Shown: in pieces, positions 38,531 through 59,980 of the stretch
Position numbering within the stretch: the stretch's first letter is position 1
Layout of the letters: the number at the start of each line of letters is the position of its first letter
Assembly: GCF_016861785.1 (NCBI RefSeq)
Contig: NZ_BOLS01000004.1
Location: 62,001 to 126,000 of the forward strand
Length of the DNA: 64,000 bases
Reading direction: 5' to 3'
Source of the DNA: Lacticaseibacillus mingshuiensis
GTDB taxonomy: Bacteria > Bacillota > Bacilli > Lactobacillales > Lactobacillaceae
Notes under the pieces: model-generated
Told to the model about the DNA's origin: nothing
Databases searched by the model: none
Seen by the model: the letters and a program-made list of their open reading frames with translations, nothing else
Made by a program: the position numbers and the translations under genes

Positions 38531-39081
38531 AGCAAAGCCTCCTTTCATGGAAAAGGGTGCGCGGCGGAGCCCGACTGGAAAAGGGTGCGGCGCCCAACTG
38601 AAGGGTGCGGACCGCGGCCCCAAAATGCAGTCAAACCAGACGGGGTCAGGATAACATTTTGCTCCGGGAAAATACCGACTTGCTCGGCATTCATACTTAA
38701 TTATAAAACAATAGTTATTACCCGTCTCGTCAAGGAAAGTATAGCAAACCCGGCCACAGTAAGCGACAATTTTTGGAAAGGGTGTGGAGCCGAGCGATTA
38801 GGTCTGAGCAGATAGTTCGGCCTGGGCGGTTGATGGCGTATTTTGCCATCGGGCGCCTGGGACAACTATCTGACTCAGAACTGCTCGGCGGAACCCAACT
38901 GGGAAAGGGTGTGGAGGCTCGCGGGATGGTGGGGCGCCGCTTCAACTACCTCTGGGTCCGCTCAGCCCACGGCCTCTCTTCCGCCCTCATAGATTTCGCC
39001 AAAATAATTCACGAAATCTGGCAGTCGCCGCCCCATCATATCCGTTATACTTGTCTTATCAATAGAGGGAAGATGACGCTG
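38531..39081. other. 550-bp intergenic region with repeat elements
   Basis: No gene. Near 38553-38615 are three short remnants of the AAGGGTGCG repeat end. The full hairpin repeat is at 38774-38935. A TATACT box near 39047 may be the -10 of the esterase gene. Confidence 0.5.
38774..38935. repeat. Dispersed hairpin repeat, copy 1
   Basis: A 101-nt hairpin (38789-38889): GCCGAGC/GCTCGGC base, TCTGAG/CTCAGA, AGATAGTT/AACTATCT, and apical GATGGC/GCCATC. It is flanked by GGAAAGGGTGTGGAG (38775) and GGGAAAGGGTGTGGAG (38901). The right flank starts a second, truncated unit (GCTCGCGGGATGGTGG). Related copies are at 49.7, 49.8 and 59.8 kb. Confidence 0.85.
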
Positions 39082-40050
39082 ATGCCGCATATCACAAATG
39101 AGCAGATCGCCCCGGATCTGCGCAGCGCCGGCCGGACCGCCCGCACCATGATCAAGGGGATGTCCGTGAAGACTTTTCGCCGCAGTAATTGGCTCATGGC
39201 AAAGTTTATGAAGGGCCATTTTCCAAGTGATCTAAACGTTCAGACCCGCGAAGTGGCCCGGCCGGATGGCTCATGGCTGCGGCTGCTGGTGGTGTTGCCA
39301 AAAGACCCGAAGCCGCTGGCAACCGGCGTGCTGTGGCTTCATGGCGGCGGTTACGCGATCGGCTTGCCCGAGATGGATTTTGCCTATGTGCGCCGGATTC
39401 AACAGGTCGCCAATGCGGTGGTCGTGCTGCCGGATTATCGGTTGGCCACGGAGGCGCCTTATCCTGCCGCCCTGGATGATGCTTACCTCAGTTTGACTTG
39501 GCTGCGCGACAATGCGATCAACCTGGGCGTCAATCCCCGCCAGCTGTTCGTCGCCGGGGAAAGTGCAGGCGGTGGGCTGACGGCGGCTCTGCTGTTGTAC
39601 AATCGCGACCATGGCAACGTCGATGTCGCGTTTCAGATGCCGCTGTATCCGATGTTGGACGACCGGCCAACGGAGACCAATGTCGATAACGACGCGCCAG
39701 TTTGGGATAGCACCAGCAACGAAAATGCCTGGAATCTGTATCTAGGCGAGCTGGCCGGGACCAAGGACGTGCCGATCTACGCCGCACCGGGTCGCGCCAG
39801 CAATCTCGAAGGCCTGCCGCCTGCCTACACCTTCATTGGCACCATCGAACCGTTTTACGCCGAGACGTTGACCTATGTCCGGCGGCTGCGAGCGGCCGGC
39901 ATTCGCGCAGACCTCGACCGATATCGCGGCGGGTTCCATGCCCTTGACTTGTTTGGCGCGAAAAAGCCGCTTGGTAAAGAGACCACTGCGCGCTGGCAAC
40001 GGTCTTTCCGGGACGCGGCCACACACAACTATAGTCAGATCAGACGATAA
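39082..40050 (+). CDS. Alpha/beta hydrolase, HSL-type esterase/lipase
   Basis: 322 residues from ATG 39082 (GAGGGAAG about 10 nt upstream; ATG 39073 is too close to it). Hormone-sensitive-lipase family: oxyanion motif HGGGYAIG, nucleophile elbow GESAGGG, and catalytic His in GGFHALD. The acid residue lies in the preceding loop region. These hydrolyse short-chain acyl esters in the cytoplasm. The next gene starts 10 bp later, so the two may be cotranscribed, although their activities are not obviously linked. Confidence 0.88.
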   Translation: MPHITNEQIAPDLRSAGRTARTMIKGMSVKTFRRSNWLMAKFMKGHFPSDLNVQTREVARPDGSWLRLLVVLPKDPKPLATGVLWLHGGGYAIGLPEMDFAYVRRIQQVANAVVVLPDYRLATEAPYPAALDDAYLSLTWLRDNAINLGVNPRQLFVAGESAGGGLTAALLLYNRDHGNVDVAFQMPLYPMLDDRPTETNVDNDAPVWDSTSNENAWNLYLGELAGTKDVPIYAAPGRASNLEGLPPAYTFIGTIEPFYAETLTYVRRLRAAGIRADLDRYRGGFHALDLFGAKKPLGKETTARWQRSFRDAATHNYSQIRR

Positions 40051-40060
40051 GGAGACCACC

Positions 40061-40996
40061 ATGACTGCGATCACCAGCACTCGCATCACGCAACTTCTGC
40101 TCGGCGGCATGATCGCCGATGCATATGGCGTTCCGTATGAATTTCGGCCTCGGCAGGCAATGGCCAAGCGGCGGATGGATGGGTACGGGACTTATGACCA
40201 ACCGGCCGGATCCTGGTCGGATGACTCGTCATTGACCTTGATCTTGGCGGCCAATTTACTTGAAAATGGCTCGCTGAACGATTTGATGGATAAAATGGTG
40301 ACCTACCTCGATGGCGCCTATACGCCAATGGGGGAATGCTTCGATATTGGCAACGCCACGCGCAAAGCCATTATTGCCTACGCCCAAGGCACCGAACCGC
40401 GCATGGCGGGGGACCGCTCGCCGGCCGCAAACGGCAATGGCGCACTGATGCGCATCGCCCCGCTGGCTGTGAGTTTGCTCAACGAACCCGATTCCACGGT
40501 GCGGCGCCAAGTGATCACGGATACCACGATCGTGACGCACGGCCATGAGCGCTCGGTGATCGCGTCTGTCATTTATGTGGAGCTACTGAGGCACTTGCTG
40601 GCAGGAGAGCCCCTGGCCGTCAGCCTGACCGCCGCGCGCGATGCGATCAAGGATGTCGGCTTTTCCGCCCAGGAGCTCAGCTATTACCAGTGGCTTTTCA
40701 CCCCCTCGTTTCCACTGTTGCCGGAAAGCGACATTCGGTCCTCCGGTTATGTGGTCGACACCTTGGAAGCGGCGGTATGGTTGAATTTTCAGCCGGAGAC
40801 CTACCCGCAGCTTGTGATGCACGCGGTGGACCTGGGCGAAGATACCGATACGGTGGCGCAGATTGCGGCGACCATTTACTGTGCGGCGCATCCGAACGTG
40901 GAATTTCCCAAGGCGTGGCGCAACGACTTGATCTTGCCGCGCGACATCGCCGTGTTGATCGCACGATTTGCCGCCCGGTTCTCGGTGGGCAACTAG
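40061..40996 (+). CDS. ADP-ribosylglycohydrolase family protein
   Basis: 311 residues from ATG 40061 behind AAGGAG. DraG/ARH-type enzymes remove ADP-ribose from proteins or small molecules using two Mg ions. The family start (LLLGGMIADAYGVPYEF), metal ligands in GSWSDDSSLTL, and the C-terminal metal motif GEDTDTVAQIAATI are all present. The substrate is not deducible. No ADP-ribosyltransferase partner is seen nearby. A terminator lies 37 bp after the stop. Confidence 0.88.
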   Translation: MTAITSTRITQLLLGGMIADAYGVPYEFRPRQAMAKRRMDGYGTYDQPAGSWSDDSSLTLILAANLLENGSLNDLMDKMVTYLDGAYTPMGECFDIGNATRKAIIAYAQGTEPRMAGDRSPAANGNGALMRIAPLAVSLLNEPDSTVRRQVITDTTIVTHGHERSVIASVIYVELLRHLLAGEPLAVSLTAARDAIKDVGFSAQELSYYQWLFTPSFPLLPESDIRSSGYVVDTLEAAVWLNFQPETYPQLVMHAVDLGEDTDTVAQIAATIYCAAHPNVEFPKAWRNDLILPRDIAVLIARFAARFSVGN

Positions 40997-41032
40997 GCGA
41001 ACGCATTGAGCCAATTCAGTCATTGAGACAAC

Positions 41033-41063
41033 AACACCCCAGCCGCGGGTCGACTGGGGTGTT
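41033..41063. terminator. Bidirectional terminator
   Basis: AACACCCCAG / CTGGGGTGTT, 10 pairs, between the convergent ADP-ribosylglycohydrolase and AAA ATPase genes. Confidence 0.8.
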
Positions 41064-41067
41064 TGCG

Positions 41068-41925
41068 TTACTCGAATTCGTCCTGATGTTCTCTGAAAAA
41101 TGCGGCGTAGGCCTGGACTTCCGGCAGTGCCTGCCATTTTTTCGTGCGGACCGGCACACTGTCGAGGTCATAGATCTTGGCATGCGGAATCGCGAGCACG
41201 AACGGCGAATGCGTCGCAATGATGAACTGATCGCCGAAAAAGCGGGCGCTGTCGGTCAATAACTTGGCGAGTTCCTGTTGGTGGGTCGGTGACAGCGAAT
41301 TTTCCGGTTCGTCGAGCAGGTATAATTGATCGTCCTGCAATTTATCCTGAAAATACTGCATCGCGCTTTCGCCATTGGAGTATTCGCGCGCATTCTTCGC
41401 CAGGTTATCGCGAACATAGCGCGACTGGGTCTTGCGCCGCGTCTCGAGCACCTTTTTCAACTCGTCATAATCGCTCAAGTCGTGGTAGTGGAAGTCGCCG
41501 AACTTGTTTTGCAGATAATCCTTGAACATGTCTTCGCGCGCGTCGTCGATGCCCTGGTTCAGCGCGCGGGTGTGCAACATCGCATCGAACACCTCGTCGG
41601 ACGTGATGATCGCCGATTTTGCTGGCAGGGCGCGGGCCAGCTGGAAGTCGCACCGCGCCAGATAATCTTCGAAAAAACTGGAGCGGTTGTAGAGCGCCGC
41701 CCGGGCCAAGCCGAGTTTTTCCGCAATGATGTTCAACAGTGTCGATTTGCCCGAGCCATTGTCGCCGTACAAAATGGTGACCGGCTCAAAGGAGAGGTCG
41801 GTCAATTGCTTGTCTGGAAAAATCTGGAAAGGATAGTAGTCACTGAACGCCCGACTTTTCTGACTGACGAAAAATTGCCACTCCGCGTCTTCATCCGGCA
41901 GGCGAAACGACTCGAGGTATTGCAT
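41068..41925 (-). CDS. ABC/SMC-like AAA ATPase
   Basis: 285 residues. Stand-alone ATPase of the AAA_21/ABC-like type: Walker A YGDNGSGKSTLLNII (about residue 54), signature-like YSNGESAMQYF, Walker B LYLLDEPENSLSP and switch IATHSPF. This pattern is shared by SMC/RecF-like and some defence ATPases. It follows terC by 12 bp on the same strand, with its AAAGGAG site overlapping the terC stop. No nuclease or effector neighbour is present, so a defence role is not supported. Substrate or partner unknown. Confidence 0.82.
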   Translation of the reverse strand: MQYLESFRLPDEDAEWQFFVSQKSRAFSDYYPFQIFPDKQLTDLSFEPVTILYGDNGSGKSTLLNIIAEKLGLARAALYNRSSFFEDYLARCDFQLARALPAKSAIITSDEVFDAMLHTRALNQGIDDAREDMFKDYLQNKFGDFHYHDLSDYDELKKVLETRRKTQSRYVRDNLAKNAREYSNGESAMQYFQDKLQDDQLYLLDEPENSLSPTHQQELAKLLTDSARFFGDQFIIATHSPFVLAIPHAKIYDLDSVPVRTKKWQALPEVQAYAAFFREHQDEFE

Positions 41926-41937
41926 CAGAAAGCTCCT

Positions 41938-42681
41938 TTACTTGCGTGCATGCGCCGCGGCGCGTTGATGCTTCCGCCAATAGTGAATGCCAAACGTGGC
42001 GGCAAACGCGACGAGAACGAAAATGGAAAAGACGGTGTTGGAGATCTCGATGCCGATCGCCGGCACCGATAGCCCGAGCTTCAAGGCGATAAAACCGATG
42101 AGCACATAGGCCATCACAAGGAGCTCCGGGATTTTCGCCAGCAGGACGATCATCATCGAGGCCACGAACCGCATGGCCAGAATACCGATCATGCCGCCGA
42201 GCAGCACGATCACCGGATTATTATCGATGGCCAGCGCGGTCAGAATCGAATCGATGGAAAATACGAAATCCAGGAAAATGATCGCGGCGACCGTGCCCCA
42301 AAACGAGCGCGGCTTGACCGCGGGCTTGTCGACTTCTTTGGGCTGGTGCTGCTCATAGAAGAAATGCAGCGACATCCACAACAGATAAGCCGCCCCCAGC
42401 GCCTTGATCACCCAGAACTTGATCAGGAAACTGCCCAGCCCAATGGCGATGAAGCGGAAAATGTAGGAGCCCCACAGGCCCCACAGCAGCGCGCTATTTT
42501 CTTTTTTCTTGTCGTGCAGCGAAGCGGTCTGCGCCGCGAGCACCACCGCGTTGTCCACCGACAGCAAGCACTCCATGATGGCCAGCGTGGCGATCGTCAT
42601 CCAGCCGCTGCCGGTCATGACCGCCGCATGCCAATCGGCGGCGTTAAAAAATGGCGCATATGAGTTGATCAGGGTGTTCAT
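41938..42681 (-). CDS. TerC-family membrane protein
   Basis: 247 residues from ATG 42681 behind GGAGGA. Integral membrane protein with about seven segments. TerC signatures are SVDNAVVLAA (second segment) and FLDFVFSIDSILTALAI, which carry the conserved acidic residues. TerC relatives in Bacillus (MeeF/MeeY) export manganese, partly to load secreted metalloenzymes; older names refer to tellurite resistance. It is the first gene of a two-gene unit with the AAA ATPase. Confidence 0.9.
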   Translation of the reverse strand: MNTLINSYAPFFNAADWHAAVMTGSGWMTIATLAIMECLLSVDNAVVLAAQTASLHDKKKENSALLWGLWGSYIFRFIAIGLGSFLIKFWVIKALGAAYLLWMSLHFFYEQHQPKEVDKPAVKPRSFWGTVAAIIFLDFVFSIDSILTALAIDNNPVIVLLGGMIGILAMRFVASMMIVLLAKIPELLVMAYVLIGFIALKLGLSVPAIGIEISNTVFSIFVLVAFAATFGIHYWRKHQRAAAHARK

Positions 42682-42809
42682 CTGTTTCCTCCGTTTGTTA
42701 CTGTCCATTATAGCGTAAAACGCGGCCAATTTTGCCCGGACTTGCAGGGGCGTCACTGGCGAGGCAGACAGGCGGCTTGCTACACTGAAGAAAACGGAGG
42801 TGTTGCGCG

Positions 42810-43142
42810 ATGAAAAAACAACTCGTTCTGCTGGGGCTACTGGCACTCCTGCTGGCCGTTGGGTCGGTGCTCGTCAGCGTCAGCTATGGCATGGTCGAAG
42901 GCGGCGTTTCAGGGGAGGCCCTCTACGTCTCGATGTTCGGCTGGCCGCTGCATTGGCTGATTCTACAAGACGGCGCCACCAATATCGTTGGCGGGCTCTT
43001 GTCTCGTGGGCTCGCCCAGCCGGCCTTGCCAAATCTGTTTATGTTGGCGCTGAACTGGGCCTTTTTCTTCGTGCTCTTACTCGGTCTGCGCGCAATGGCT
43101 CGGGGCGCGTGTCACCGGATCCAGGCACAACGCGTCAAATAA
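42810..43142 (+). CDS. Small membrane protein, paralogue 1
   Basis: 110 residues; GGAGG precedes ATG 42810. An N-terminal hydrophobic segment, a short extracytoplasmic loop with MFGWPLHWLIL, and a second hydrophobic segment (MLALNWAFFFVLLLGL) with a basic tail. The next gene (43262-43582) encodes a paralogue sharing the MFGWPL.WL motif and layout. Family not recognised. Confidence 0.7.
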   Translation: MKKQLVLLGLLALLLAVGSVLVSVSYGMVEGGVSGEALYVSMFGWPLHWLILQDGATNIVGGLLSRGLAQPALPNLFMLALNWAFFFVLLLGLRAMARGACHRIQAQRVK

Positions 43143-43184
43143 AGCGGACGGTTCTTGCAATCGCTTTCATTACCTGTCAAACTA

Positions 43185-43219
43185 GGTGTCAGGTGTCAGG
43201 TGTCAGGTGTCAGGTGTCA
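43185..43219. repeat. 7-bp tandem repeat GGTGTCA x5
   Basis: Five exact head-to-tail copies of GGTGTCA between the two paralogous membrane-protein genes, 43 bp before the second start codon. The copy number could vary between strains. Confidence 0.95.
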
Positions 43220-43261
43220 AGAAGGCCTGACCCAAGCAAAACTGACCCAAGGAGGCAATAT

Positions 43262-43582
43262 ATGAAAAAGAAAATGATCTGGGGCTACATTGCGCTCTCC
43301 GGCATCCTGACCGCGCTGCTCACCATTTTGGCAAAAAGCGGTGGCGTAGCGGACGGCACAGATGGCGGGTATTTCACAATGTTCGGGTGGCCACTGGGTT
43401 GGCTAACGGTGCACAATGGGGAAAACTCGACTTCGGCCGGCTTATTCACTCAACTTGGCCAAGGTAGCGCAAGCGCCAATGTGCTGATGCTATTGATCGA
43501 TTGGCTGATCCTTTTTGCGGCAGTCATGCTGGTTCGCCGGCTTGTGCTGCGCATCCGCAAGCAAAAAGAAGTCCACGCCTAG
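43262..43582 (+). CDS. Small membrane protein, paralogue 2
   Basis: 106 residues; AAGGAGG lies 8 nt before ATG 43262. Same layout as the gene at 42810: signal-like segment, MFGWPLGWLTV motif in the loop, second membrane helix (LLIDWLILFAAVMLV) and a basic C-terminus. A tandem duplication that has diverged strongly except for the motif. The intervening GGTGTCA array may affect its expression. Confidence 0.7.
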   Translation: MKKKMIWGYIALSGILTALLTILAKSGGVADGTDGGYFTMFGWPLGWLTVHNGENSTSAGLFTQLGQGSASANVLMLLIDWLILFAAVMLVRRLVLRIRKQKEVHA

Positions 43583-43609
43583 GGTAGGCGCAAATTGAAT
43601 AGTGAGGGA

Positions 43610-43650
43610 GAACCGGGTCAACTGCAGGCAAAGCTGGCTTGGTTCTTTTT
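43610..43650 (+). terminator. Probable intrinsic terminator
   Basis: GAACC / GGTTC closing pairs around a GC-rich loop, followed by TTTTTG. It ends the small membrane protein unit. Confidence 0.5.
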
Positions 43651-43744
43651 GTTTGAATGGAATCGGCCAAGAGCGGGCGATCAGGAGCATATATCGACTC
43701 GGCTAGGTGATTATGGGATATGGGCATGCGGCCCCTCTGAAATT

Positions 43745-43773
43745 TTGTCTATCGCCGCGCGAAAGGGTACACT
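43745..43773 (+). promoter_or_regulatory. Promoter of the TetM-like GTPase operon
   Basis: -35 TTGTCT (43745-43750), 17-bp spacer, -10 TACACT (43768-43773). The predicted start near 43780 lies about 25 nt before ATG 43806. Confidence 0.5.
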
Positions 43774-43805
43774 TAATAGGAAGATTTTGGCGAGGAGGTC
43801 GGCAG

Positions 43806-47364: not shown

Positions 47365-47375
47365 TTGGTATGCGG

Positions 47376-47406
47376 CGGCGTGGCCCTAGGGCGGCGCCGT
47401 TTTTTT
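47376..47406 (+). terminator. Intrinsic terminator
   Basis: CGGCG..GCCC / GGGC..CGCCG stem followed by TTTTTTT, 12 bp after the stop of the acidic protein gene. Confidence 0.85.
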
Positions 47407-47485
47407 GAGAGAAGGAGGCGAAACGTGGTGGCCGGCGCTTAGCGGATCGGCGATCACCGTCCGCCGTCCGCCCACTCTGGCCAAT

Positions 47486-47514
47486 TTGAGGGCTTGCACG
47501 CAAAAGCGTATGAT
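47486..47514 (+). promoter_or_regulatory. Promoter of pepI
   Basis: -35 TTGAGG (47486-47491), 17-bp spacer, -10 TATGAT (47509-47514), 31 bp ahead of the start codon. Confidence 0.55.
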
Positions 47515-47544
47515 GGCGGTAATTAGAATGAAGAGGGCCAGACT

Positions 47545-48423: not shown

Positions 48424-48430
48424 ACTGAGT

Positions 48431-48465: not shown

Positions 48466-48472
48466 ATATTAT

Positions 48473-49579: not shown

Positions 49580-49637
49580 GCCACAGAAAAAGGCCCGCGA
49601 TGTGGCGGGCCTTACATATAGTCAGGTTTTGGGCCCA

Positions 49638-49904
49638 CCATCCCGCGGGCCTGCACACCCTGTAGTTGGGTTCCGGTCCGCATGGTCGAGGTATCTAGTT
49701 GTCTTGTGCACTCGATGGCCAAGAACGCCATCAAGCACCCAAGCCAAACTAGCTACTCGACCATCCCGCGGGCCTGCACACCCTGTAGTTGGGTTCCGGT
49801 CCGCATGGCGGGGACATCTAACTGTCTCGTGCACTCGAGGCGAAGTGCGCCTCAAGCACCCGAGCCAAGTTAGCTGCCCCGCCATCCCGCGGGCCTGCAC
49901 ACCC
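49638..49904. repeat. Dispersed hairpin repeat, tandem copies 2 and 3
   Basis: Three direct repeats beginning CCATCCCGCGGGCCTGCA at 49638, 49761 and 49882 separate two hairpins. Hairpin 2 (49684-49762): GGTCGAG/CTCGACC, CTAGTT/AACTAG, apical GATGGC/GCCATC. Hairpin 3 (49807-49883): GGCGGGG/CCCCGCC, CTAACT/AGTTAG, apical GAGGCG/CGCCTC. All three helices changed between copies with pairing kept. The array lies between the orphan RNA and the stop of the minus-strand CmpB-like gene. Relative to copies 1 and 4 it is in inverse orientation. Confidence 0.9.
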
Positions 49905-50717
49905 TTACTTTGTCTTTGCTTCTTTTCGCCGGCGTTTCATGACATCGGCCAAGGCTGAGATCTCATTGGCTGAGGCTTTGCTGTCGTTGAGTTGCAGATA
50001 TGGGAAACTCTTCAACAAACGGCGCTGGACTGCGTTGAGTTGCGGCAATTTATTTTCCGTATCACCGTGTTTGCGGTAGTCTTCCAGCCAGCCTCGATCC
50101 GCCGCGAGCTTGTCGGCTGCCTCGGTCGCCCGGGTGCGCAGCTCTGTTTTCTTCGCGTCGATCGACTCGCCGATGCGCTTGGTCGCCGCGCCGAAGGACA
50201 ACATGTTGGCCAAGGTGAAGCCGAGGTCGAACATCATTAAGGCGATGAATACGATTGCGGCGAAAATGCCGTAAGCGGTGTCCAGGCGGGTGACGACGCT
50301 GGCGACCAGCGGATGGACGAATTTCACGATCGCGACGACGCCGAGGCCCCAAAAGGCGGAGATCGGCAGGGCGACGCGGCCGTTCAGGTTCAGGGGCACG
50401 TTGCTGTAATCCCACCAGCGGGCGTGGAAGAGTTTTTCCATCAGCCAGCTCGTGATGTATTCGATCACCGTGACCACCAGCGCGGACAGGAGATAGAGGA
50501 CCACCAGATTATTTTGAAAAGGCGCGATTGCCGCAAGTACGGCGGTCATGGCAAAGCCGTAAACGGGGATGACCGGGCCGGTGAGAAAGCCGGAATTGAC
50601 CCACTGGTGCTTTTTCACGCTGACATAGCCGCTTTCCCACAGCCAGCCGACAAAGGCATAGGCAAAAAAGTAAAGGACCCAATTCGTAAACGCCTGCTCA
50701 ACCGCGATCTGATTCAT
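49905..50717 (-). CDS. Putative ABC transporter permease-like membrane protein (CmpB family)
   Basis: 270 residues from ATG 50717 behind GGAGG. Six or so membrane segments (FFAYAFVGWLWESGYV, GFLTGPVIPVYGFAM, VVTVIEYITSWLMEKLF, FDLGFTLANML) match the ABC_trans_CmpB family of Firmicutes. The Glu/Trp-rich motif GWLWES and YGFG-like turn are typical. The family name is historical; no transport activity is proven and no ATPase is adjacent. The C-terminal 90 residues are a basic cytoplasmic helix region ending MKRRRKEAKTK. The hairpin repeat array starts right at its stop codon. Confidence 0.82.
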   Translation of the reverse strand: MNQIAVEQAFTNWVLYFFAYAFVGWLWESGYVSVKKHQWVNSGFLTGPVIPVYGFAMTAVLAAIAPFQNNLVVLYLLSALVVTVIEYITSWLMEKLFHARWWDYSNVPLNLNGRVALPISAFWGLGVVAIVKFVHPLVASVVTRLDTAYGIFAAIVFIALMMFDLGFTLANMLSFGAATKRIGESIDAKKTELRTRATEAADKLAADRGWLEDYRKHGDTENKLPQLNAVQRRLLKSFPYLQLNDSKASANEISALADVMKRRRKEAKTK

Positions 50718-50884
50718 TATAACGCCTCCATTCGTTGCTTTGACTTTAGCACAGGACTTGGCCTGCTGGCTAGCATGCGTTATTATTTGCACGAGAAGCG
50801 CCGCGGCTGGCAGGCGGAATCGCCGCGTTTGGTCGCTTGGCGGAAACGTTATTTGACGGTGGCTTTTGCCAGAGGAGGAAAAAC

Positions 50885-51247
50885 ATGTCGCTCGTTGCAT
50901 TGATCTTGGTTGGCTTATTGGGCATCGAACATTTGGGTATTGCCGGGCTGGAAATGCTGGCAAAACCGGACGTGCAAGCAGGCGCCTTTGGGATGCCACT
51001 GTCGTTTGTCCAAGAACCCAACGCGCAAGTCGCGCTGAAAAATCAGGGCATTTATAATTTCGCGTTGGGCCTCGTCCTGTTATTGACGCTGGTCCTGCTG
51101 CATGGCCAGGCGCAAGTCGTGACGGCGGCGCTGCTGGCCGGCTTCGTGGCCTTGGTCGGGCTGTACGGCGGGGCGACGGTGACGAAGAAGATCTTTCTGC
51201 TTCAGGCGCTGCCGGGCGTCGTGACGCTGATCTTGGTGGTGCTTTAA
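50885..51247 (+). CDS. DUF1304 small membrane protein
   Basis: 120 residues from ATG 50885 behind GAGGAGG. Four hydrophobic segments with the DUF1304 pattern: GIEHLGIAGLEM, NQGIYNFALG, GFVALVGLYGGATVTKKIFLLQALPGVVTL. Function unknown. The next gene (AlkD-like) begins 1 bp after its stop, so they are probably translated from one mRNA. Confidence 0.88.
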   Translation: MSLVALILVGLLGIEHLGIAGLEMLAKPDVQAGAFGMPLSFVQEPNAQVALKNQGIYNFALGLVLLLTLVLLHGQAQVVTAALLAGFVALVGLYGGATVTKKIFLLQALPGVVTLILVVL

Positions 51248-51248
51248 G

Positions 51249-51900
51249 ATGGCGGCGGAGAGCGAGCGCTTTTTCCTGCAAGGCGACCCCACTAATGCGG
51301 CGCCCATGGCCCATTACATGAAGGATCGGTTTCCGTTTCTCGGGGTCAAAACACCTGAACGGAAGCGGCAACTGCGACCGCTGCTTGCCGCCAGCCGGAC
51401 CTGGTCGACCGAGGCGTTGCGGGCCGCTGTCGCAGAGCTGTATGCTCGGCCTGAGCGGGAATATCAGTATGCGGCGATCGACCTGGCCAGCGCCCGCGTG
51501 CAGCAGTGGACGCTGACGGACATGCGCTGGCTGGCCGATTTTGTTTCGGTAAAGGCCTGGTGGGACAGCGTTGACGCCTGGCGGATGGTGTTTGGTCGCT
51601 ACATCGCGCGACATCCCGCGGACAAGGCGGCGATGTTCGACTGGTTTTTCGGCCAGGATGATTTTTGGCTTCGCCGCGTCGGCATCACGCTCCAACTGAT
51701 GGAAAAACAGCAAACGGACACCGCGATGTTGGCGCGTGCGATCTTGGCGGACCGGACCACCCCGGAGTTTTTCATCCAAAAAGCGATTGGGTGGGCGCTG
51801 CGGCAGTACAGCAAGACGGACGCCGCCTGGGTGCGCGCGTTCATGGGGGGACCATGAGCTGATGCCGCTGGCGGTGCGCGAGGGCAGTAAATATCTTTGA
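51249..51900 (+). pseudogene. AlkD-type DNA alkylation repair protein, frameshift near C-terminus
   Basis: HEAT-repeat DNA glycosylase family that removes alkylated bases. Residues 1-200 are intact: FPFLGVKTPERKRQLRPLL, REYQYAAIDL, WWDSVDAWRMVFGRY, and DDFWLRRVGITLQL with conserved Trp/Asp/Arg. The frame ends prematurely at AFMGGP after a run of six G (51845-51850). With five G the frame reads MGDHELMPLAVREGSKYL and stops at 51898-51900, the expected end for AlkD (about 216 residues). The extra G removes only the last 16 residues, so activity may persist. Slippage, polymorphism or sequencing error are all possible. Confidence 0.85.
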
Positions 51901-52017
51901 TTGGAGGCATCGGCGCTCAGGAACAACCGTGTCGCGCCGCCCCGCGAGTCACTTTGATTGACGAATGCGCCGGCCCCGCCGATAATTTGCCCATCACAGA
52001 AAGAGGAGGCGGCCGCG

Positions 52018-52731: not shown

Positions 52732-52938
52732 CAGGAGGCCGCCGCGGGGCTGGTTTTTGGAGGGGTTGATAAAAGCCGGTTGCCTTGCCTCGTGCGTTTG
52801 GGGACTTGCCCTGCCAACTTGACATGACGGCCCATTCCAAGTTTTGCGGACGCCATCGTTTTTCCCTGATCCGGCCGGCATTTTCGGCGTAGGATGAGGA
52901 TGACAACGGTTGCAAAACAACAAAGGCAGGTCATCAAC

Positions 52939-53627: not shown

Positions 53628-53640
53628 AATAAGATTTTAG

Positions 53641-53681
53641 GGCCGTGACGGCGAGCTATTGCTGTCGCGGCCTCTTTTTTT
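53641..53681 (+). terminator. Intrinsic terminator
   Basis: GGCCGtGACgGC / GCtGTCgCGGCC then TCTTTTTTT, 13 bp after the end of the EEP frame. Confidence 0.85.
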
Positions 53682-53713
53682 GATTCAGGGTGTGCAGGCC
53701 CGCGGGATGGTGG
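53681..53713. repeat. Dispersed hairpin repeat, truncated copy
   Basis: GATTCAGGGTGTGCAGG then CCCGCGGGATGGTGG, matching the repeat end at 49638 (reverse complement) and 38911. Like copy 4 it begins directly after a terminator T-tract (TTTTTTTGATTCAGGGTG). Only the left end is present. Confidence 0.75.
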
Positions 53714-53806
53714 CTCAGGCCGTCCCCCTTTTTCCCCGAAAAAACATTTCGCTGGCCGCCCCCAACGCGTAGACTGAAAGAGATCGTCACAACTGGAGGT
53801 TACGTC

Positions 53807-54436: not shown

Positions 54437-55907
54437 ACGTGCCATCATGATCGTCACCGTTGCCTTATTGCTGTCAAACGCCATGAGTGGGCTCGACAGT
54501 ACCATTGTGAACACCGCGCTGCCGGCGATCATCGCCGACTTGCACGGCCTGCAGTACATGGCGTGGATCGTCGCGTCGTTTTTGCTGGGGACCGCCGTGT
54601 CGACGGTCCTTTGGAGCAAGTTGGGCCAGCGCACCTCCAATAAATTTGCTTATGAACTGGCGGCCTTATTGTTTGTGCTTGGGTCGCTGCTTCAGGGACT
54701 GGCGCCGAACATGGCGTTTTTGATCGCGGCGCGGGCGCTGTCCGGGCTGGGCAACGGCGGTATGGTGTCCCTACCGTATATCATTTACGCCGATCTGTAT
54801 CGTGATCCGCGCAAACGGATGCAGGTGCTGGGGCTAGTCTCCGGGTCCTACAGCATGGCGACGATCATCGGGCCGCTGGTCGGTGGGTACATCGTCGATA
54901 CGTTTTCCTGGCACTGGGTCTTTTATCTGAACGTGCCGATCGGGCTGTTGTCGGCGTTGGTCGTCCAATCGTTTTATCAGGTGGCGAAAAATCGTCAGCA
55001 GCGGTCCCCACTGGATCGGTCCGGGGCCATTGCGATGGTGATCGGGCTGGTGTCCCTGCTGGCGGGCATCGAGCTGATCGGCACCGGCACCCTGGGCATG
55101 ATCGTGTTGTTGCTGGCGATCGCAGCCGCTGGATTTGGCTGGTTGCTTTTTGCGGAAAAACGGGCGGTGGATCCGATCATTCCGGGCCGGCTTTTCAAAA
55201 ATCGGGCGCTGGTCATCGATTTTGCCTTATTCGCGCTGATCTGGGCGGCGTTCATGAGCTTTATCACATACAGTCCAATGTGGGCGCAGGGCTTGCTGGG
55301 AACGTCGGCGCTGATCGGGGGCGCGACGCAGATTCCCAGCTCATTTGCGAATTTCTTCGGGTCGGCGTCGGTCGCCCCGATGCGTCGGCGACTGACGCCA
55401 TATCGGGTGATCACGATCGGCATTTTGACCCTGACCATCGCGTTCGTCCCGCTGGTCATCGCTGGGGTCCACGCCCCATACTGGATCTTGCTGGTGGCTG
55501 GCGTGTTTGAGGGCTTTGGCAACGGGGCCTGCTTCACCGAACTGCAGGTCAAGGTACAGACCGATGCCGCAGCCGCGGATGTCCCAGTCGCCACGTCGTT
55601 CTCGTTTTTGATTCGAATGCTGAGCCAGACGTTCATCGCGGCCATTTCGGGCATCGTAATGAACCACGCGCTGGCCGCCGGGGTCGCCGCATCAGCCGGC
55701 CACATCACAATGGGCATGCTCAACAAGCTCAGCGACGCCAGCACCGTCGGCAGTCTGCCGCAACGTTTGCTGCCCGAAATGCGGACGATCTTGCATGGCG
55801 GGCTACACAACATCATGGCGGTGTCGCTGGCGCTGATGCTCGCGGCCTGGGTGCTGCATATTTGGTCCCAGCGCCGCGCGCGAGTGGCGGCGCGAACCGC
55901 GGGGTAG
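54429..55907 (+). CDS. MFS drug exporter, DHA2 type
   Basis: 492 residues from GTG 54429, overlapping the methyltransferase gene by 8 bp. About 14 membrane helices. The DHA2 hallmark LDSTIVNTALPAI is in the first helix and GPLVGGYIVDTFSWHWVFYLNVPIG in helix 5 (motif C, antiporter). Proton-driven export of drugs or other amphiphiles is the usual role; substrate unknown. The C-terminus ends in an arginine-rich tail. Coupling to an rRNA methyltransferase is likely a gene-order accident. Confidence 0.9.
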   Translation: MSKRAIMIVTVALLLSNAMSGLDSTIVNTALPAIIADLHGLQYMAWIVASFLLGTAVSTVLWSKLGQRTSNKFAYELAALLFVLGSLLQGLAPNMAFLIAARALSGLGNGGMVSLPYIIYADLYRDPRKRMQVLGLVSGSYSMATIIGPLVGGYIVDTFSWHWVFYLNVPIGLLSALVVQSFYQVAKNRQQRSPLDRSGAIAMVIGLVSLLAGIELIGTGTLGMIVLLLAIAAAGFGWLLFAEKRAVDPIIPGRLFKNRALVIDFALFALIWAAFMSFITYSPMWAQGLLGTSALIGGATQIPSSFANFFGSASVAPMRRRLTPYRVITIGILTLTIAFVPLVIAGVHAPYWILLVAGVFEGFGNGACFTELQVKVQTDAAAADVPVATSFSFLIRMLSQTFIAAISGIVMNHALAAGVAASAGHITMGMLNKLSDASTVGSLPQRLLPEMRTILHGGLHNIMAVSLALMLAAWVLHIWSQRRARVAARTAG

Positions 55908-55989
55908 CTGACGGGCTCCCGGAAGAGGGGCGTTACTGCCTTGCACTGCCGGAACCGGGCGGAATGACCCAAGAAAGAAGGATGACACA

Positions 55990-56583
55990 ATGACCGTGAT
56001 CGATGATTATATTTTCAACCAACCCGAATCCGTGCAGCCACGCCTTCAGGAATGGGCGACGCTCTTGCGTGAGGCCCTGCCGCAAGCGGACGAGCGGCTC
56101 GCGTATGGCATGCCGGCTTTTTATCTGCAGGGGAAGGCGGCTGTCTATTTTGCCGCGAATCGCCAGCATGTCGGCTTTTACCCGACGCCGGCGACCATCA
56201 CCGAATTTTCCGAGGAACTCCAGGCCTTTCACACGAGCAAGGGCGCGATTCAGTTTCCGTATGACCAGCCGTTACCGGCAAAATTGGTGCGGAAGATGGC
56301 CCAATGGCGCGCCGCCCATATGACTGATGAGCGGGCGACGGCGGCCGCGCCAGTTGCCCGCCAGCGGGAGACCATGCCGGATGCGGTCGCGGCGGCACTG
56401 GCGGCGCATGGCTTGCAAGAGGCTTATGATGCGCGCCCGCCGTATCAACAAAACGATTATCTGCGGTGGCTCGGCCAGGCAAAACGGCCCGCGACCCAGC
56501 AGGCTCGGCTGGCGCAACTATTGACGGAACTGGCGGCCGGCAATGTCTACATGAAGATGCCGTGGCAGCCGCGAAAGAGGTAA
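55990..56583 (+). CDS. DUF1801 plus YdeI-like C-terminal domain protein
   Basis: 197 residues; GAAGGA precedes ATG 55990. N-terminal DUF1801 domain: VQPRLQEWATLLREALPQADERLAYGMPAFYLQGKAAVYFAANRQHVGFYP, a YdhG/SufE-like fold. The C-terminal 70 residues (MPDAVAAALAAHGLQEAYDARPPYQQNDYLRWLGQAKRPATQQARLAQL) match the bacteriocin-protection YdeI/OmpD-associated domain. Small cytoplasmic protein of unknown biochemical function. A second short gene follows 5 bp later. Confidence 0.88.
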   Translation: MTVIDDYIFNQPESVQPRLQEWATLLREALPQADERLAYGMPAFYLQGKAAVYFAANRQHVGFYPTPATITEFSEELQAFHTSKGAIQFPYDQPLPAKLVRKMAQWRAAHMTDERATAAAPVARQRETMPDAVAAALAAHGLQEAYDARPPYQQNDYLRWLGQAKRPATQQARLAQLLTELAAGNVYMKMPWQPRKR

Positions 56584-56587
56584 GCAA

Positions 56588-56857
56588 ATGAAGACAAGTT
56601 ATTACCGGGTGATTCAGACGATCGATACAAAAGATGATGATGGCCGGCCAGTCACATTGACGCCTGGCACCGGGCTGTACATCACGACCACGGCGGCGGT
56701 GAATGCGCAAGGGGATGCGTTGGTGGATGACGCGTATCTGCTTTTTGCAAAAGCGACGGGCCTGACCACGGAAGTCAGCCTTTCGAGTCAGCTGCTCGAT
56801 TATTTAGCCCCGATCTCGGCCTTGGATTATCAGATCATCGCGGCCGAAGCCAAGTGA
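56588..56857 (+). CDS. Hypothetical protein, 89 aa
   Basis: AGAGGTAAG lies 6 nt before ATG 56588, and the gene sits 5 bp after the DUF1801 stop, so they are cotranscribed. Beta-rich start (YYRVIQTIDTKDDDGRPVTL), then a helical part (LVDDAYLLFAKATGLTTEV). No membrane segment and no known motif. Possibly related to small Lactobacillaceae-specific proteins. Confidence 0.6.
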   Translation: MKTSYYRVIQTIDTKDDDGRPVTLTPGTGLYITTTAAVNAQGDALVDDAYLLFAKATGLTTEVSLSSQLLDYLAPISALDYQIIAAEAK

Positions 56858-57092
56858 GTGTTGTGAGCAGGGACACAAACGAAAAAGTCTTGTGGCTGGC
56901 GTGCTTTTCGTTCTTTAATTGGAAGCTTTGAGCCGTGATTATTCGGCGTGATCTCACTGGCTAAAAGATTGTGATTCCGTTGCTTGACCAAGCGAAAGCG
57001 ACGATTACATCGGACACTTTTCCGAATTGACGACAGCCAAGAAATTCACAAATGCAGGCGAAACCGATACAAACAATTTACAATTTTAGATG

Positions 57093-57124
57093 TTGACGTA
57101 TCCGATTACTGGAGTTATTATAAT
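57093..57124 (+). promoter_or_regulatory. Promoter of the 57-kb orphan RNA
   Basis: -35 TTGACG (57093-57098) and a perfect -10 TATAAT (57119-57124), spaced 20 bp, which is longer than usual. No gene follows on this strand. Confidence 0.5.
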
Positions 57125-57130
57125 CGCGAC

Positions 57131-57510
57131 ACTGAGAGGCGTGGAGGAGCTGGCCACGAGTTCTCTCCCAGCGTCGGTCAGTCCGGCGGGATCCAACCCG
57201 CGACCTACCCCGAGCGACGCAATGACGGTCACCTGTTACATGTTGGGTGACCCAAAGGGCTTAAACGGACCCGGTACTGGGGAGTACCGGAAAAATGTAC
57301 CACCCAATTTCTAACTGAATAAGTTCCCTAACACCAACGGGAGGAATCTCGAAAATGAAGAGGGAAAGGGATCCAACCTAAAATTTGGCAGGTCGGAGGA
57401 GACTTCGGCCTGTTTGCTGTGCCGTCAGAACCTTTTTCGGTAATAGGCCCGACGCGAAGGCGCCGGGCAGACATAAAAACTGGGCGCAACCGCTGCGCCC
57501 AGTTTTTGTA
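57131..57510 (+). ncRNA. Orphan multi-hairpin RNA, about 380 nt
   Basis: Ordered helices visible by eye: GAGAG/CTCTC enclosing CGTG/CACG (about 57134-57168), GCGTCG/CGACGC enclosing GCGGG/CCCGC (57171-57219), GGTCACC/GGTGACC (57225-57251), CCGGTACT-GGGG-AGTACCGG (57271-57292), TTCCCT/AGGGAA (about 57325-57366), AGGTCGGAG-GAGA-CTTCGGCCT (GNRA loop, about 57392-57413), GCCCG/CGGGC (57447-57468) and terminator ACTGGGCGCA/TGCGCCCAGT. There is no open frame with a ribosome binding site. It is not followed by a gene on its strand for 2 kb, so it is probably not a riboswitch. It lacks the RNase P GAGGAAAGUCC core and a tmRNA tag frame. Confidence 0.55.
57476..57509. terminator. Bidirectional terminator
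   Basis: AAAACTGGGCGCA / TGCGCCCAGTTTT with T-tracts on both strands; shared by the orphan RNA and the minus-strand gene that ends at 57532. Confidence 0.85.
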
Positions 57511-57531
57511 TGCGGGAATCTTCCCATTATC

Positions 57532-57918
57532 TTATTGATCCACATCTGCCACGCGCCGCAGGGTCACGGTGAGACCGGTCGCTTCGGCGTAGGTGTAGCG
57601 CGCCTCGATGCCTTTGACGATGCCACCGGCTTGTCCCTTCTGAAGGGCGGTGTGGTAGGTTTCCAGCCAGATGCCGACCGCCTCAAAGCCAAATTCGAAG
57701 CCTTCGAAGACTTGCATATACACGCGGCTGGTCGGCGAAGTTGTGTGAATGGTGATCGCCGTTACCTGGCCGCCGCGGATGTGCAGGGTCAGCGTCAACG
57801 TCCCATCATTGAGCAAACGTTGGTCGCCATCTGCGGCTGTTTTTGGCAAACGGTGATCAGGCAAAGCCATATTGCGATTATAGACGCGCTGGACATAGTC
57901 ATAAGATCCCAGATCCAT
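57532..57918 (-). CDS. Hypothetical protein, 128 aa
   Basis: Starts at ATG 57918 behind AAGGAGG. Predicted alternating beta strands: GTLTLTLHIRGGQVTAITIHTTSPTS, then FEFGFEAVGIWLETYHTALQKGQ. It may be a small alpha+beta fold. No signal peptide, membrane segment or known motif. Single gene before the terminator. I do not recognise the family. Confidence 0.65.
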   Translation of the reverse strand: MDLGSYDYVQRVYNRNMALPDHRLPKTAADGDQRLLNDGTLTLTLHIRGGQVTAITIHTTSPTSRVYMQVFEGFEFGFEAVGIWLETYHTALQKGQAGGIVKGIEARYTYAEATGLTVTLRRVADVDQ

Positions 57919-57997
57919 GGCGCTCGCCTCCTTATCGCCTGCATTATAGGCGCGGGGCGTGCAACCACGCAACGAATCTGACTCGCGCGGCGTGGGG

Positions 57998-59239
57998 TCA
58001 GCTTTCCTTTAAGTTAGGATGGAGCCAGCGCTCGACGAGTTGGCGGTTGGCTAGCAAAACAGGGACGAGAAGCACGAGCGCGAGGATCCCGCAGGACGGA
58101 AAGCCCCACAGCCCGGTCAATGCGTCCATCACGGAGCCGACATAGATCGAGCCGACCGGGGTGGTGCCTTGGTTGAGCAGCACGTACACACTCATGATGC
58201 GGCCACGCAATTCGTTTGGAATGTCGAACTGGAACGAGGCGTTGGACTGGTTGAGGAAGATCATGTTGCAAAAACCGATCAGAACCATCATCACCATGGC
58301 GAGCGGATACGAGCGGACGAAGAACATGGCCGCCTGCAAGCCCGCGGTGCCGACTGCGACCCACAGATAAATGTTGCGCTGCAGGCCAAACCGCGACAGG
58401 CAGCTCATCAAAAACGCTGCGGCAAGTGAGCCGATCCCGGTGGCCGAGAGCAGGTTGGCATAAATGTCCGCGCCGCCGCCCAGCACTTGGTTCGCGTAGA
58501 TCGGGATGATGACATTATTGTTGAAGTTGAGCGTCGACACGATCAGCATCAATTCCGCACTCATGCGGATGCCGGCATGCGACCAAACATATTTAAGGCC
58601 ATCTTTGACATCGGCCCACAACCGTTTCTTCGACGGGGTGGCGACGACCTTGGTCTGCTTGATCAAAAACAGGCCGCCGAGAACGGCTAAGTAGGAGATC
58701 GCATCAACGAGAAAACAGATGCCGACCGAGAATTTGACCATCAAGAGGCCGGCCAGTGATGGCCCGGCGATCTTGGCGAGGTTGAAGATCGTGGAGTTCA
58801 GTGAAATGCCGTTCATCAGATTTTTGCGGCCGACGAGTTCGACAACGAACGACTGGCGCGTCGGCGTGTCAAAACTCTGCAGGACGCCGTAACCGAGAGC
58901 GATGGCGAGTACCATCCAATACTGGACCACGCCAGTCATCACGATCACCGTCATGATGACACCGAGCACGAGAAAGCCGGCCTGCGTGATCATCAAAATG
59001 CGCCGCTTGGGATGGCGGTCGATCAATGAGCCTGCGACCAGCGTCAGGCCGAGAATCGGTAAAAACTGGCAGGCGGAGAGCAACCCCACCAGAAACGCCG
59101 ACTTGGTCATTTGGTACACGAGCCAGGTCTGGGCGGTGCGCTGGATCCAGGTGCCCATGACGGAGATACACTGGCCGATCCAGAAATACCGGAAATTCTT
59201 TTCGCGAAGCGAGGAAAACATGGTGCCTAAGACGTTCAA
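57998..59239 (-). CDS. MFS transporter, EntS/MFS_3-like
   Basis: 413 residues from TTG 59239 (AAAGG 11 nt upstream and a promoter at 59273-59300); ATG 59221 is the alternative start. Twelve membrane helices. The MFS_3 signature is NFRYFWIGQCISVMGTWIQRTAQTWLVY in helix 1 and DRHPKRRILMITQ between helices 2 and 3. The DTPTRQSFVVELVGRKNLMNGISLNS stretch is typical of the macrolide/enterobactin-exporter-like branch. Efflux of small molecules is likely; substrate unknown. Confidence 0.88.
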   Translation of the reverse strand: MNVLGTMFSSLREKNFRYFWIGQCISVMGTWIQRTAQTWLVYQMTKSAFLVGLLSACQFLPILGLTLVAGSLIDRHPKRRILMITQAGFLVLGVIMTVIVMTGVVQYWMVLAIALGYGVLQSFDTPTRQSFVVELVGRKNLMNGISLNSTIFNLAKIAGPSLAGLLMVKFSVGICFLVDAISYLAVLGGLFLIKQTKVVATPSKKRLWADVKDGLKYVWSHAGIRMSAELMLIVSTLNFNNNVIIPIYANQVLGGGADIYANLLSATGIGSLAAAFLMSCLSRFGLQRNIYLWVAVGTAGLQAAMFFVRSYPLAMVMMVLIGFCNMIFLNQSNASFQFDIPNELRGRIMSVYVLLNQGTTPVGSIYVGSVMDALTGLWGFPSCGILALVLLVPVLLANRQLVERWLHPNLKES

Positions 59240-59272
59240 TGCGGCCGCATCCTTTACGGTAAGATAACTTCT

Positions 59273-59300
59273 ACAATAGTCTTTAATTACACTGTGTCAA
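59273..59300 (-). promoter_or_regulatory. Promoter of the MFS_3 transporter
   Basis: Minus strand: -35 TTGACA (59300-59295), 16-bp spacer, -10 TATTGT (59278-59273). It predicts a leader of about 27 nt to TTG 59239. Confidence 0.55.
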
Positions 59301-59528
59301 TATAAAGACGGGTGTTGATCACGAAATCGCTCGTGGGGCATTCGATGGTGCGGCGAGGCGTAACGCACCCTTTTGTCTGGTGGTCTTGGTACAATACGGG
59401 TAGGCGGGGACGGCACACATGATTAGCACTATCTTCATTCAAGTGCTAAAAAAGTGCGCCGGTCGCCGGCAAATGCGTTATACTGTTGTTGTCCGTAAGG
59501 TAAGAAAACAATGATGGAGGTAAAGATC

Positions 59529-59744
59529 ATGGCAGATGTTGAAAAGACGCTTGTACTTGATAAGCCGATGAACGCGGTGTTTGATTGGAGCGATTCCGAG
59601 ACGCCGGTTCGCGATGCATTGTGGGACTACTACATGGAGAAGAACGGAAAGGATACGATCAAGACCGAAAAGGAAATGAAGCCGGTCCTGGACAAGAGCG
59701 ATGATGAGGTCAAAGCCCTTGTGGAATCCGTTCTCAAGAAGTAA
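59529..59744 (+). CDS. Small acidic hypothetical protein, 71 aa
   Basis: ATG 59529 preceded by GGAGGT. Highly charged helical protein ([43 protein letters not shown]). A strong terminator follows, so it has its own transcript. No known motif. Short, acidic proteins with this layout are common and often abundant in lactobacilli, but no function can be given. Confidence 0.7.
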
Positions 59745-59770
59745 TAGCCGACGCGTGCAACGCTGCGGCG

Positions 59771-59803
59771 ACCCCGTTGTCCGAGGACAGCGGGGCTTTT
59801 TTT
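59771..59803 (+). terminator. Intrinsic terminator
   Basis: CCCCGttGTCC / GGACagCGGGG then CTTTTTTT, followed at once by the hairpin repeat. Confidence 0.85.
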
Positions 59804-59804
59804 G

Positions 59805-59980
59805 ATTCAGGGTGCGAAGCGCGGCGTTTAGGTCTGAACAGCTAGTGCGGCCTGGGTGGTTGATGGCGTCCTTGGCCATCGAGCGACCGGGACGACTAGA
59901 TGTTTCAGACCTGCCGCGCGTAGCCCTACTACAGGATGCGGCGCCGAGCGTTCAGGGGTAGGCAGGCAGTGCGGGCTGGA
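59805..59980. repeat. Dispersed hairpin repeat, copy 4
   Basis: Begins GATTCAGGGTGCG right after the terminator T-tract, as at 53681. The 101-nt hairpin (59819-59919) has GCGCGGC/GCCGCGC base, AGGTCTGA/TCAGACCT, CTAGT/ACTAG and apical GATGGC/GCCATC. Same length as copy 1 but with different base and middle stems. Followed by the start of another truncated unit (AGGATGCGGCGCCGAGCG). Confidence 0.9.

Follow-up and report, generated by a model that had tools for sequence, protein, structure and literature searches.

Tandem arrays of covarying hairpin units at the edges of transcription units in Lacticaseibacillus

Results

Hairpin units in the window

A stretch of 64,000 nucleotides from Lacticaseibacillus mingshuiensis (contig NZ_BOLS01000004.1, positions 62,001 to 126,000; the window in what follows) carries a dispersed intergenic hairpin repeat, present as complete units in short tandem arrays and as truncated or collapsed remnants. 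The initial annotation had listed four complete copies, all of which are present and each of which is longer than it had noted. Three of the truncated ends that it reported also stand, while the one at 38553-38617 is read here as two hairpin-deleted units and a short head. The comparisons below are with a close relative or sister species (G021), which is 93% and 92% identical to the window over the two main syntenic matches, and the bit scores come from a covariance model built from A1, an alignment of 74 units from one species pair. The copies in the window are as follows.

38553..38617, plus strand: collapsed array of two hairpin-deleted units (AGGGTGCG/CGGCGGAGCCCGACT; AGGGTGCGGCGCCCAACT) and a truncated head, read from its sequence and the comparison with G021
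38779..38900, plus strand: complete unit, inner type B, P1 GCCGAGC/GCTCGGC (C4:100779-100900; model match of 116.4 bits)
38906..38933, plus strand: 3'-truncated terminal unit, head only
49787..49905, minus strand: complete unit, inner type A, first of its array (123.4 bits)
49664..49784, minus strand: complete unit, inner type A, second of its array (126.8 bits)
49634..49661, minus strand: 3'-truncated terminal unit, head only
53687..53713, plus strand: solitary head (n = 0), directly after the TTTTTTTGATTC of a terminator
59809..59930, plus strand: complete unit, inner type B, directly after the TTTTTTTGATTC of a terminator (128.9 bits)
59933..59985, plus strand: 3'-truncated, degraded terminal unit, end approximate

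The genes beside these copies look ordinary. By Pfam they encode an ABC_trans_CmpB protein, a MarR-like regulator, an Exo_endo_phos protein, two MFS transporters, a Mga-like regulator, an ADP-ribosylglycohydrolase and a flotillin-like protein, and one neighbour has no Pfam match. G021 has two complete units at the site of the collapsed array, one unit and a head at the site of the solitary head, and two units and a truncated one at the site of the degraded terminal unit. The solitary head appears to have arisen by recombination between the two heads of the G021 unit, with loss of a unit between direct repeats. The terminators at 53674-53686 and 59796-59808, and those at some other arrays, read TTTTTTTGATTC, and the array begins directly after GATTC. 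The same GATTC is the spacer in some arrays (L231, L234 and L200) and also follows the L061 terminator with no array directly behind it.

Fold of the unit

The unit is a single rod-like hairpin of about 122 nt that runs from AGGGTGYGNA to GNARCCCAACT, aligned units being 117-125 nt long. Its outermost helix, P0, consists of G3-C119, 4-118, G6-C117 and Y7-R116 with T5 bulged; inside it lie a symmetrical GNA/GNA internal loop and then P1 of 7 bp. On the 5' side P1 is followed by a bulge, GGG in inner type A and GTTT-like in inner type B, beyond which come P2, a small internal loop, P3 with CTAG and an apical helix with a GGCGCACTTNGCC-like tip. A first register for P0 (G2-C119, G3-C118, G4-C117) was replaced after the locus variants AGGATGC/GCTC and AGGCTGC/GCGC were seen, and the RNAalifold, pair-scoring, orthologous-rate and G-T/C-A analyses reported here used older P0 registers. 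Variants at 4-118 are scarce, with A-T in 3 of 189 units of the window's own genome (G000) and A-T in 3 and C-G in 1 of 115 units of G021. Folded as single-stranded DNA, the four window units have z-scores of -6.8 to -9.4. With DNA parameters, their AGGGTG strand folds at -35 to -42 kcal/mol and its complement at -27 to -34 kcal/mol, an advantage of 7.8-12.5 kcal/mol for the former.

Copy number and distribution

A search of G000 (2,756,195 bases in 56 contigs) with the covariance model returned at least 150 full-length matches, as the best 150 of 1553 candidates were all full-length. Units were then called with nhmmer in 71 stretches around matches plus the window, together 549 kb or about a fifth of G000, and since these stretches were picked for their matches, solitary heads and weak copies are under-counted. 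Twenty-one of 237 matches overlapped better ones and were dropped; 20 matches kept neither end before this removal and none after it. These stretches hold 189 complete units, to which fifteen further stretches add 13 and L248 adds 1, giving 203 units, which make up about 0.9% of the genome. This count is probably too low, and the possibility that the family consists of the four window copies alone is thus contradicted.

The matches fall into 103 groups, which contain no complete unit in 2 cases, one in 42, two in 40, three in 10, four in 8 and five in 1, and the fifteen further stretches also hold some solitary heads. In 81 of 101 arrays the last full unit is followed by another head or truncated unit, and in 20 none was recognised. 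Once overlaps are removed, partial matches keep the 5' end only in 24 cases and the 3' end only in 3, of which one lies at a contig edge. An array thus typically consists of n full units plus one truncated unit.

With one genome per species, as in all comparisons here, the repeat was matched at E <= 0.01 in 24 of 30 genomes of the genus (its own included) and in 0 of 30 genomes of other genera, judged on the best 59 or fewer candidates per genome under strict filters. The carriers have from 1 to at least 59 matches each; some copies may have been missed in the six genus genomes that gave none. Matches in six other genomes of the genus (G001, G006, G011, G014, G018 and G024) have a G+C content of 58-74%. 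A 23-nt head has a single exact named match, in Lacticaseibacillus yichunensis (NZ_RHOG01000019.1). Plasmid and phage records gave no match, the distant BLAST having used one 276-base query, and viral contigs gave no match to one exact pattern.

That the repeat belongs to no named family, as had been suspected at the outset, agrees with what we found. At the gathering thresholds, the Rfam scan of the window gave only a fluoride riboswitch (RF01734, at 32023) and no match for the hairpin unit, a permissive scan of 49600-49950 alone gave one chance-level match (E 5.3), and no description of this lactobacillus repeat was found in the open-licence literature.

Covariation of the stems

The stems differ between copies and stay paired, as the initial annotation described. 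In an RNAalifold analysis of 74 units, 27 of 41 pairs had at least one sequence changed on both sides with pairing kept, and the pairs with the highest mutual information are those of the proposed fold. Pairing holds in 97.1% of the cells of A1 (older P0 register), with 515 double-changed cells against 151.8 in shuffles. The covariation score of A1 is 0.482 against 0.198 when shuffled (0 of 500 shuffles as high), and it falls to 0.05-0.09 when partners are slid; further pair types are not above shuffles (63 against 61.7). Seventy distinct units from the six other genomes score 0.532 against 0.157 in an alignment that is itself fitted to the structure. By eye, 24 units from these genomes have very different letters and retain the rod, the bulge and the tip, and most of them retain the GNA/GNA loop.

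Mismatches in P1 are rare: after leaving out units with a gap in this helix (302 of 304 kept), 286 of 302 show one mismatch or none, and no more than 8 show three or more. In 28 of 302 units the two arms carry common P1 alleles that differ from each other; some of these pairs of alleles differ by one base and are possibly plain mutations. That there are few broken hairpins although such chimeric units exist supports a requirement for the fold; broken hairpins arise but do not prosper. For the comparison of P1 alleles between species, alleles were read by a perfect-complement rule, which failed for 46 of 189 G000 units. The 7-bp alleles GCGGGGC, GCGCGGC, GCCGAGC and GGCTCGC recur in units of G000, G006, G014 and G024 with otherwise very different interiors; given the G....GC pattern, this may well be chance sharing rather than a code common to the species.

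Frame and interior

We measured the excess identity within arrays (kappa) by groups of alignment columns. In G000 it is high at the 5' side (0.78 for columns 1-7 and 0.59 for 8-10), low in the interior (0.01-0.19 for groups of columns 11-112, with -0.06 in the bulge, and 0.16 for 113-115) and high again at the 3' side (0.69 for 116-119 and 0.53 for the tail). The corresponding values in G021 are 0.64 (1-7), 0.07 (8-10), 0.05-0.16 (11-112), 0.49 (113-115), 0.26 (116-119) and 0.49 (tail). Units of one array are thus alike at their outer ends and hardly so inside. The frame, meaning the outer ~10 nt (P0 and the GNA/GNA loop) with a few bases of the spacer, therefore tends to be locus-specific, and the interior of ~100 nt from P1 to the apex is interchangeable and drawn from a pool that spans the genome. 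For only 39 of the 147 units in multi-unit arrays is the closest relative a unit of the same array, and the best match in another array has a median identity of 0.90 across all 189 G000 units.

The first spacer resembles the 5' flank of its array. The mean common suffix is 1.37 nt against 0.57 nt when shuffled in G000 (91 of 103 arrays, leaving out L145 at a contig edge and arrays without a following head) and 1.60 against 0.66 nt in G021 (52 loci), with 0 of 5000 shuffles as high in either genome. The common suffix ranges from 0 to 8 nt, L200 being a 7-nt case (TTGATTC). Such a spacer may be the trace of an insertion or duplication that took in a few flank bases, a reading from sequence that is no proof.

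Three further patterns found no support. Strict alternation of inner types A and B is not borne out (50 of 88 neighbours differ against 47.2 expected, with a crude caller that left 7 of 189 units unassigned and shifted the P1 strings of a few). Nor is the copying of arrays as blocks, since for only 3 of 88 pairs of neighbouring units are the relatives in other arrays neighbours too. An exchange of interiors by way of an excised state, with duplication of the 3-nt GNA, finds no echo in A1, where the N on the left (column 9) and that on the right (column 114) agree at no more than the expected rate, or at L118/L192, where they differ in both species.

Changes between the two species

Both flanks of 43 of the 60 G021 arrays lie in the fetched G000 stretches; the other 17 arrays were outside the comparison, except one stretch and L246/L192. 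Forty of the 43 meet an array in G000 (39 different arrays, as two neighbouring G021 arrays map to 38779-38900 and one of them really faces the collapsed 38553-38617), two face a remnant or a solitary head, and one, L171:5949-6069, which lies directly after a T-tract in G021, meets nothing recognisable. The number of units differs at 25 of the 40 same-site pairs, in one array by 6 against 1.

At eight loci with a single unit in both species, the interior is conserved in four (94/101, 92/100, 93/101 and 93/98) and different in four (54/98, 61/100, 62/100 and 67/100). Seven of the eight interiors at the four differing loci have a relative elsewhere at 0.92-0.99, and the eighth only at 0.73. The clearest swap is L118/L192, where the 5' flank is almost identical and the same rare AGGATGC...GCTCAACT frame surrounds unrelated interiors. 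Empty frames of the form GGGTGYGNARCCCRACT occur four times in G000 and three times in G021 and were not found in the remaining 28 genomes of the genus, in many of which the frame is spelled differently. One G000 empty frame faces two full G021 units (L246/L192), and 38553-38617 in the window appears to be a similar collapse. A further G021 stretch that was checked in G000 has a shorter array there, not an empty site.

Placement relative to genes

None of the 103 arrays overlaps a called gene by more than 40 nt, gene boundaries near arrays being those of a simple home-made caller. The 5' edge is sharp and is often found at a stop codon, behind a terminator or on the outer side of a divergent promoter. 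Where the upstream gene is co-directional (46 arrays), no more than 6 nt separate its stop from the array in 30 cases, or the two overlap, and in some the A or AG of AGGG completes the stop codon; the TAA stop of the open reading frame 49905-51926 (minus strand) ends in the first A of the window unit at 49787..49905 (minus strand). Gene distances of -23 to -1 at some arrays (window 49905, for example) reflect stop codons supplied by the element, some of which possibly lie further inside the unit, near the TTTAG bulge. Another 14 of the 46 start more than 30 nt away, and 9 of these 14 have a T-tract just before them. Where the upstream gene is divergent (54 arrays), 17 arrays have a promoter-like site (at least 9 of 12 matches) pointing away, against 5 in one shuffle set, with the -35 within 20 nt of the array in 14 of the 17; the remaining 37 have no such site. 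Distances on the 3' side are broader, with medians of 155 and 112 nt.

Orientation is mixed: among 97 arrays with both neighbours called, 24 run along two co-directional genes, 32 run against two, and 22 and 19 stand in the other arrangements. In the six other genomes (32 arrays), the same placement, at most 6 nt from the upstream stop or overlapping it, is seen in 11 of the 25 arrays whose upstream gene is co-directional. Of 61 proteins flanking those arrays, 13 were matched in the G000 stretches, 8 of them within 600 nt of an array, in stretches that are themselves centred on arrays and make up a fifth of G000, so that the count speaks neither for nor against positions conserved in the genus. 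A replication-strand rule was rejected because the bias against GC skew is weak only (38:65, p 0.01), and by eye no simple target motif precedes the unit.

Other features of the window

The fluoride riboswitch RF01734 lies at 32023-32084 (plus strand; 36.1 bits). A second dispersed repeat of ~340 bp occurs at 57069-57431, L141:4126-4459 and L123:1618-1947; its G000 copies are 90-96% identical, several more are found in G021, and it has no obvious kinship to the hairpin family. A pair of 231-bp direct repeats (18198-18428 and 24526-24756) is 89% identical and lies 6.3 kb apart.

Discussion

Our results are best explained by non-coding intergenic DNA elements that occur genus-wide and are recognised and propagated as DNA through the hairpin of the AGGGTG strand, with units copied between loci by recombination, a reading to which we give a probability of just over one half. 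Units would be copied by recombination or template switching at the ~11-nt segments common to all copies, for which gene conversion or switching of the replication template would be the simplest engine. An occasional insertion would duplicate a few nucleotides of the 5' flank, and only copies whose arms still pair would be propagated. Stems would then stay matched through this propagation rather than through a host function of each copy, and elements that persist only outside coding sequence would be found at the edges of transcription units.

The initial annotation took the covariation to imply selection on the fold, either as RNA or as a DNA cruciform. The covariation is real, extends to other species and is accompanied by a rarity of broken hairpins, so this part holds. 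The step from covariation to selection has to be qualified. Interiors are exchanged whole, so that many paired changes move together, and the mismatch types in the outer helices of G000 speak against RNA. A selected RNA should prefer G-U over C-A in every helix. In the outer helices (P0-P3), the G000 units taken together have G-T and C-A in equal measure, 99 against 102 (P0 16:14, P1 21:22, P2 40:34, P3 22:32), which fits DNA better than RNA. That the count has the power to detect a preference is seen in the apical helix, with 447 G-T against 9 C-A in G000 and 259 against 3 in G021. In view of the lean of G021 described below, the comparison is an argument and not a proof. The conserved apical G-T also indicates that the two strands are not equivalent, and we infer that the AGGGTG strand is the one recognised.

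Several observations weigh against this DNA-based explanation. The outer helices of G021 lean to G-T (68 against 43, p 0.02), as under selection on a single strand or RNA. Rates were compared in 27 orthologous pairs, out of 53 reciprocal G000/G021 unit pairs, that are more than 0.85 identical and closer to each other than to the unit of any other array. The 26 excluded pairs comprise ten with a within-locus identity of at most 0.83 and a match of at least 0.86 elsewhere, the rest being close to ties, low by both measures or, for a single pair, 0.85 against 0.95. In the 27 pairs, G-T changes outnumber C-A changes 26:9 overall (p 0.006) and 18:9 in the outer helices (p 0.12). Paired sites differ in 3.3% of cases (68/2082) and unpaired sites in 6.6% (77/1172), and a rate half as high in paired sites indicates a constraint on individual copies such as a host function would give. 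Five double changes between Watson-Crick pairs were seen in the same set, with ~0.2-0.3 expected from independent events by our estimate. The frame signal of G021 is weak at columns 8-10 (0.07) and 116-119 (0.26), and as the frame is near-invariant everywhere, its identity at swapped loci says little alone. Target duplication is not proven, since 38 of the 91 first spacers of G000 share no base with the end of the flank, and the single candidate for a clean empty site has flanks too diverged to prove insertion. A cognate enzyme was not found, PF01797 alone being sought.

The alternative that survives best, which we consider unlikely but worth taking seriously, is a structured RNA, in which transcribed arrays act as elements of 3' untranslated regions, RNase III substrates or small RNAs and the covariation reflects selection on the RNA. 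The lean of G021, the conserved apical G-T, the greater stability of the AGGGTG strand, the constraint on paired sites and the 30 of 46 arrays that begin within 6 nt of a co-directional stop all speak for it. The equal counts of G-T and C-A in the outer helices of G000, the mixed orientation to genes (24, 32, 22 and 19 of 97 arrays), the swapping of interiors between loci and the absence of an Rfam match where scanned speak against it, as do some arrays that are preceded by a T-tract, or situated upstream of a promoter-like site that points away, and that the neighbouring gene should not transcribe.

Rather doubtful, in our view, is that the units are DNA structural sites with a host function, where a protein of the nucleoid, of DNA topology or of replication would bind the cruciform or hairpin, as has been proposed for BIMEs. 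A fold that is conserved across the genus while the sequence changes freely would suit such a role, and so would the constraint on paired sites, the location at the edges of transcription units and the weak strand bias against GC skew. It is difficult to reconcile with 1 to at least 59 matches per carrier genome and none in six of the 30 genus genomes (where some may have been missed), with unit numbers that vary between sister species, and with the persistence of solitary heads and empty frames.

Integron attC sites are imperfect hairpins with unpaired bases on one side, in which the fold rather than the sequence is conserved. The hairpin units share these traits, but they lie only a few nucleotides apart, which leaves no room for open reading frames or gene cassettes. 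A dedicated exchange of hairpin cassettes, as doubtful as the host-function reading above, would have a recombinase recognise the folded AGGGTG strand and swap the interior in and out of a mini-hairpin frame resident at the locus. The empty frame in its GGGTGCGNAGCCC form contains GCGNAGC, which is an extraordinarily stable DNA mini-hairpin. If this were true, the genome would hold hundreds of docking sites for exchangeable hairpins and a cassette traffic without genes.

Least likely of all is a classical MITE or REP/REPIN moved by a Y1 or DDE transposase of the same genome: the high copy number, hairpin form, intergenic location, short flank-like spacers and three Y1_Tnp matches in G000 would fit, but Y1_Tnp (PF01797) is absent from 8 of 16 repeat-bearing genomes among the 19 genus genomes searched (G001, G004, G005, G006, G007, G011, G014 and G017, with G006, G011 and G014 among the richest in repeats), the interior rather than the whole unit differs between loci, no perfect terminal inverted repeats were seen, and the flank-like stretch varies in length. 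Mobilisation by Y1/RAYT enzymes was therefore rejected for want of a correlation, and no autonomous element beyond PF01797 was sought, DDE transposases not being searched for.

In kind, the family is comparable to small repeat elements known from other bacteria, and it matches none of the families tested. Neisserial intergenic mosaic elements (NIMEs) are intergenic arrays of a short constant repeat (dRS3) and larger RS units for which recombination at the constant part has been suggested (PMC3898611). They share with our arrays an intergenic mosaic, a constant frame, interchangeable units and change driven by recombination. The hairpin family differs in that frame and interior form one continuous hairpin with covarying arms, and it belongs to another phylum; the dRS3 pattern ATTCCC(N8)GGGAAT has no exact match in 250 loci. 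Pneumococcal BOX elements are described as modular and foldable with a tandem module number that varies between strains (PMC3049150). The likeness extends to modular, foldable repeats of variable unit number, but our arrays lack distinct boxA- and boxC-like ends, consist of one unit type and mostly a truncated copy, and tend to share a locus-specific frame among their units; the distinction drawn here is one of anatomy. REPs and REPINs are built on a 20-40 bp palindrome with a GTAG or CGTC tag at one end (PMC3733652). REPs, BIMEs and REPINs have in common with the hairpin family many clustered intergenic palindromic copies that presumably act as folded DNA. Identity to a REP family, which had been considered, does not agree with the length of the unit (~122 nt), its foot (AGGGTG/CCCAACT or a variant, with no GTAG by eye), its direct tandem order or the distribution of PF01797. 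The MITE traits listed in the same BOX source are AT-richness, terminal inverted repeats and target site duplication (PMC3049150); here the 5' AGGGTGYGNA and the 3' GNARCCCAACT pair only in part.

In conclusion, a large family of structured repeats is present in a genus that is used in food and probiotics, and its arrays are possibly good typing markers. Two sister species whose unit numbers differ at 25 of 40 arrays offer a natural assay of how hairpins are gained, lost and swapped and how their pairing is maintained. Our findings are also a caution that strong covariation may arise in DNA elements and need not mean RNA, and that the balance between G-T and C-A is a simple additional test.

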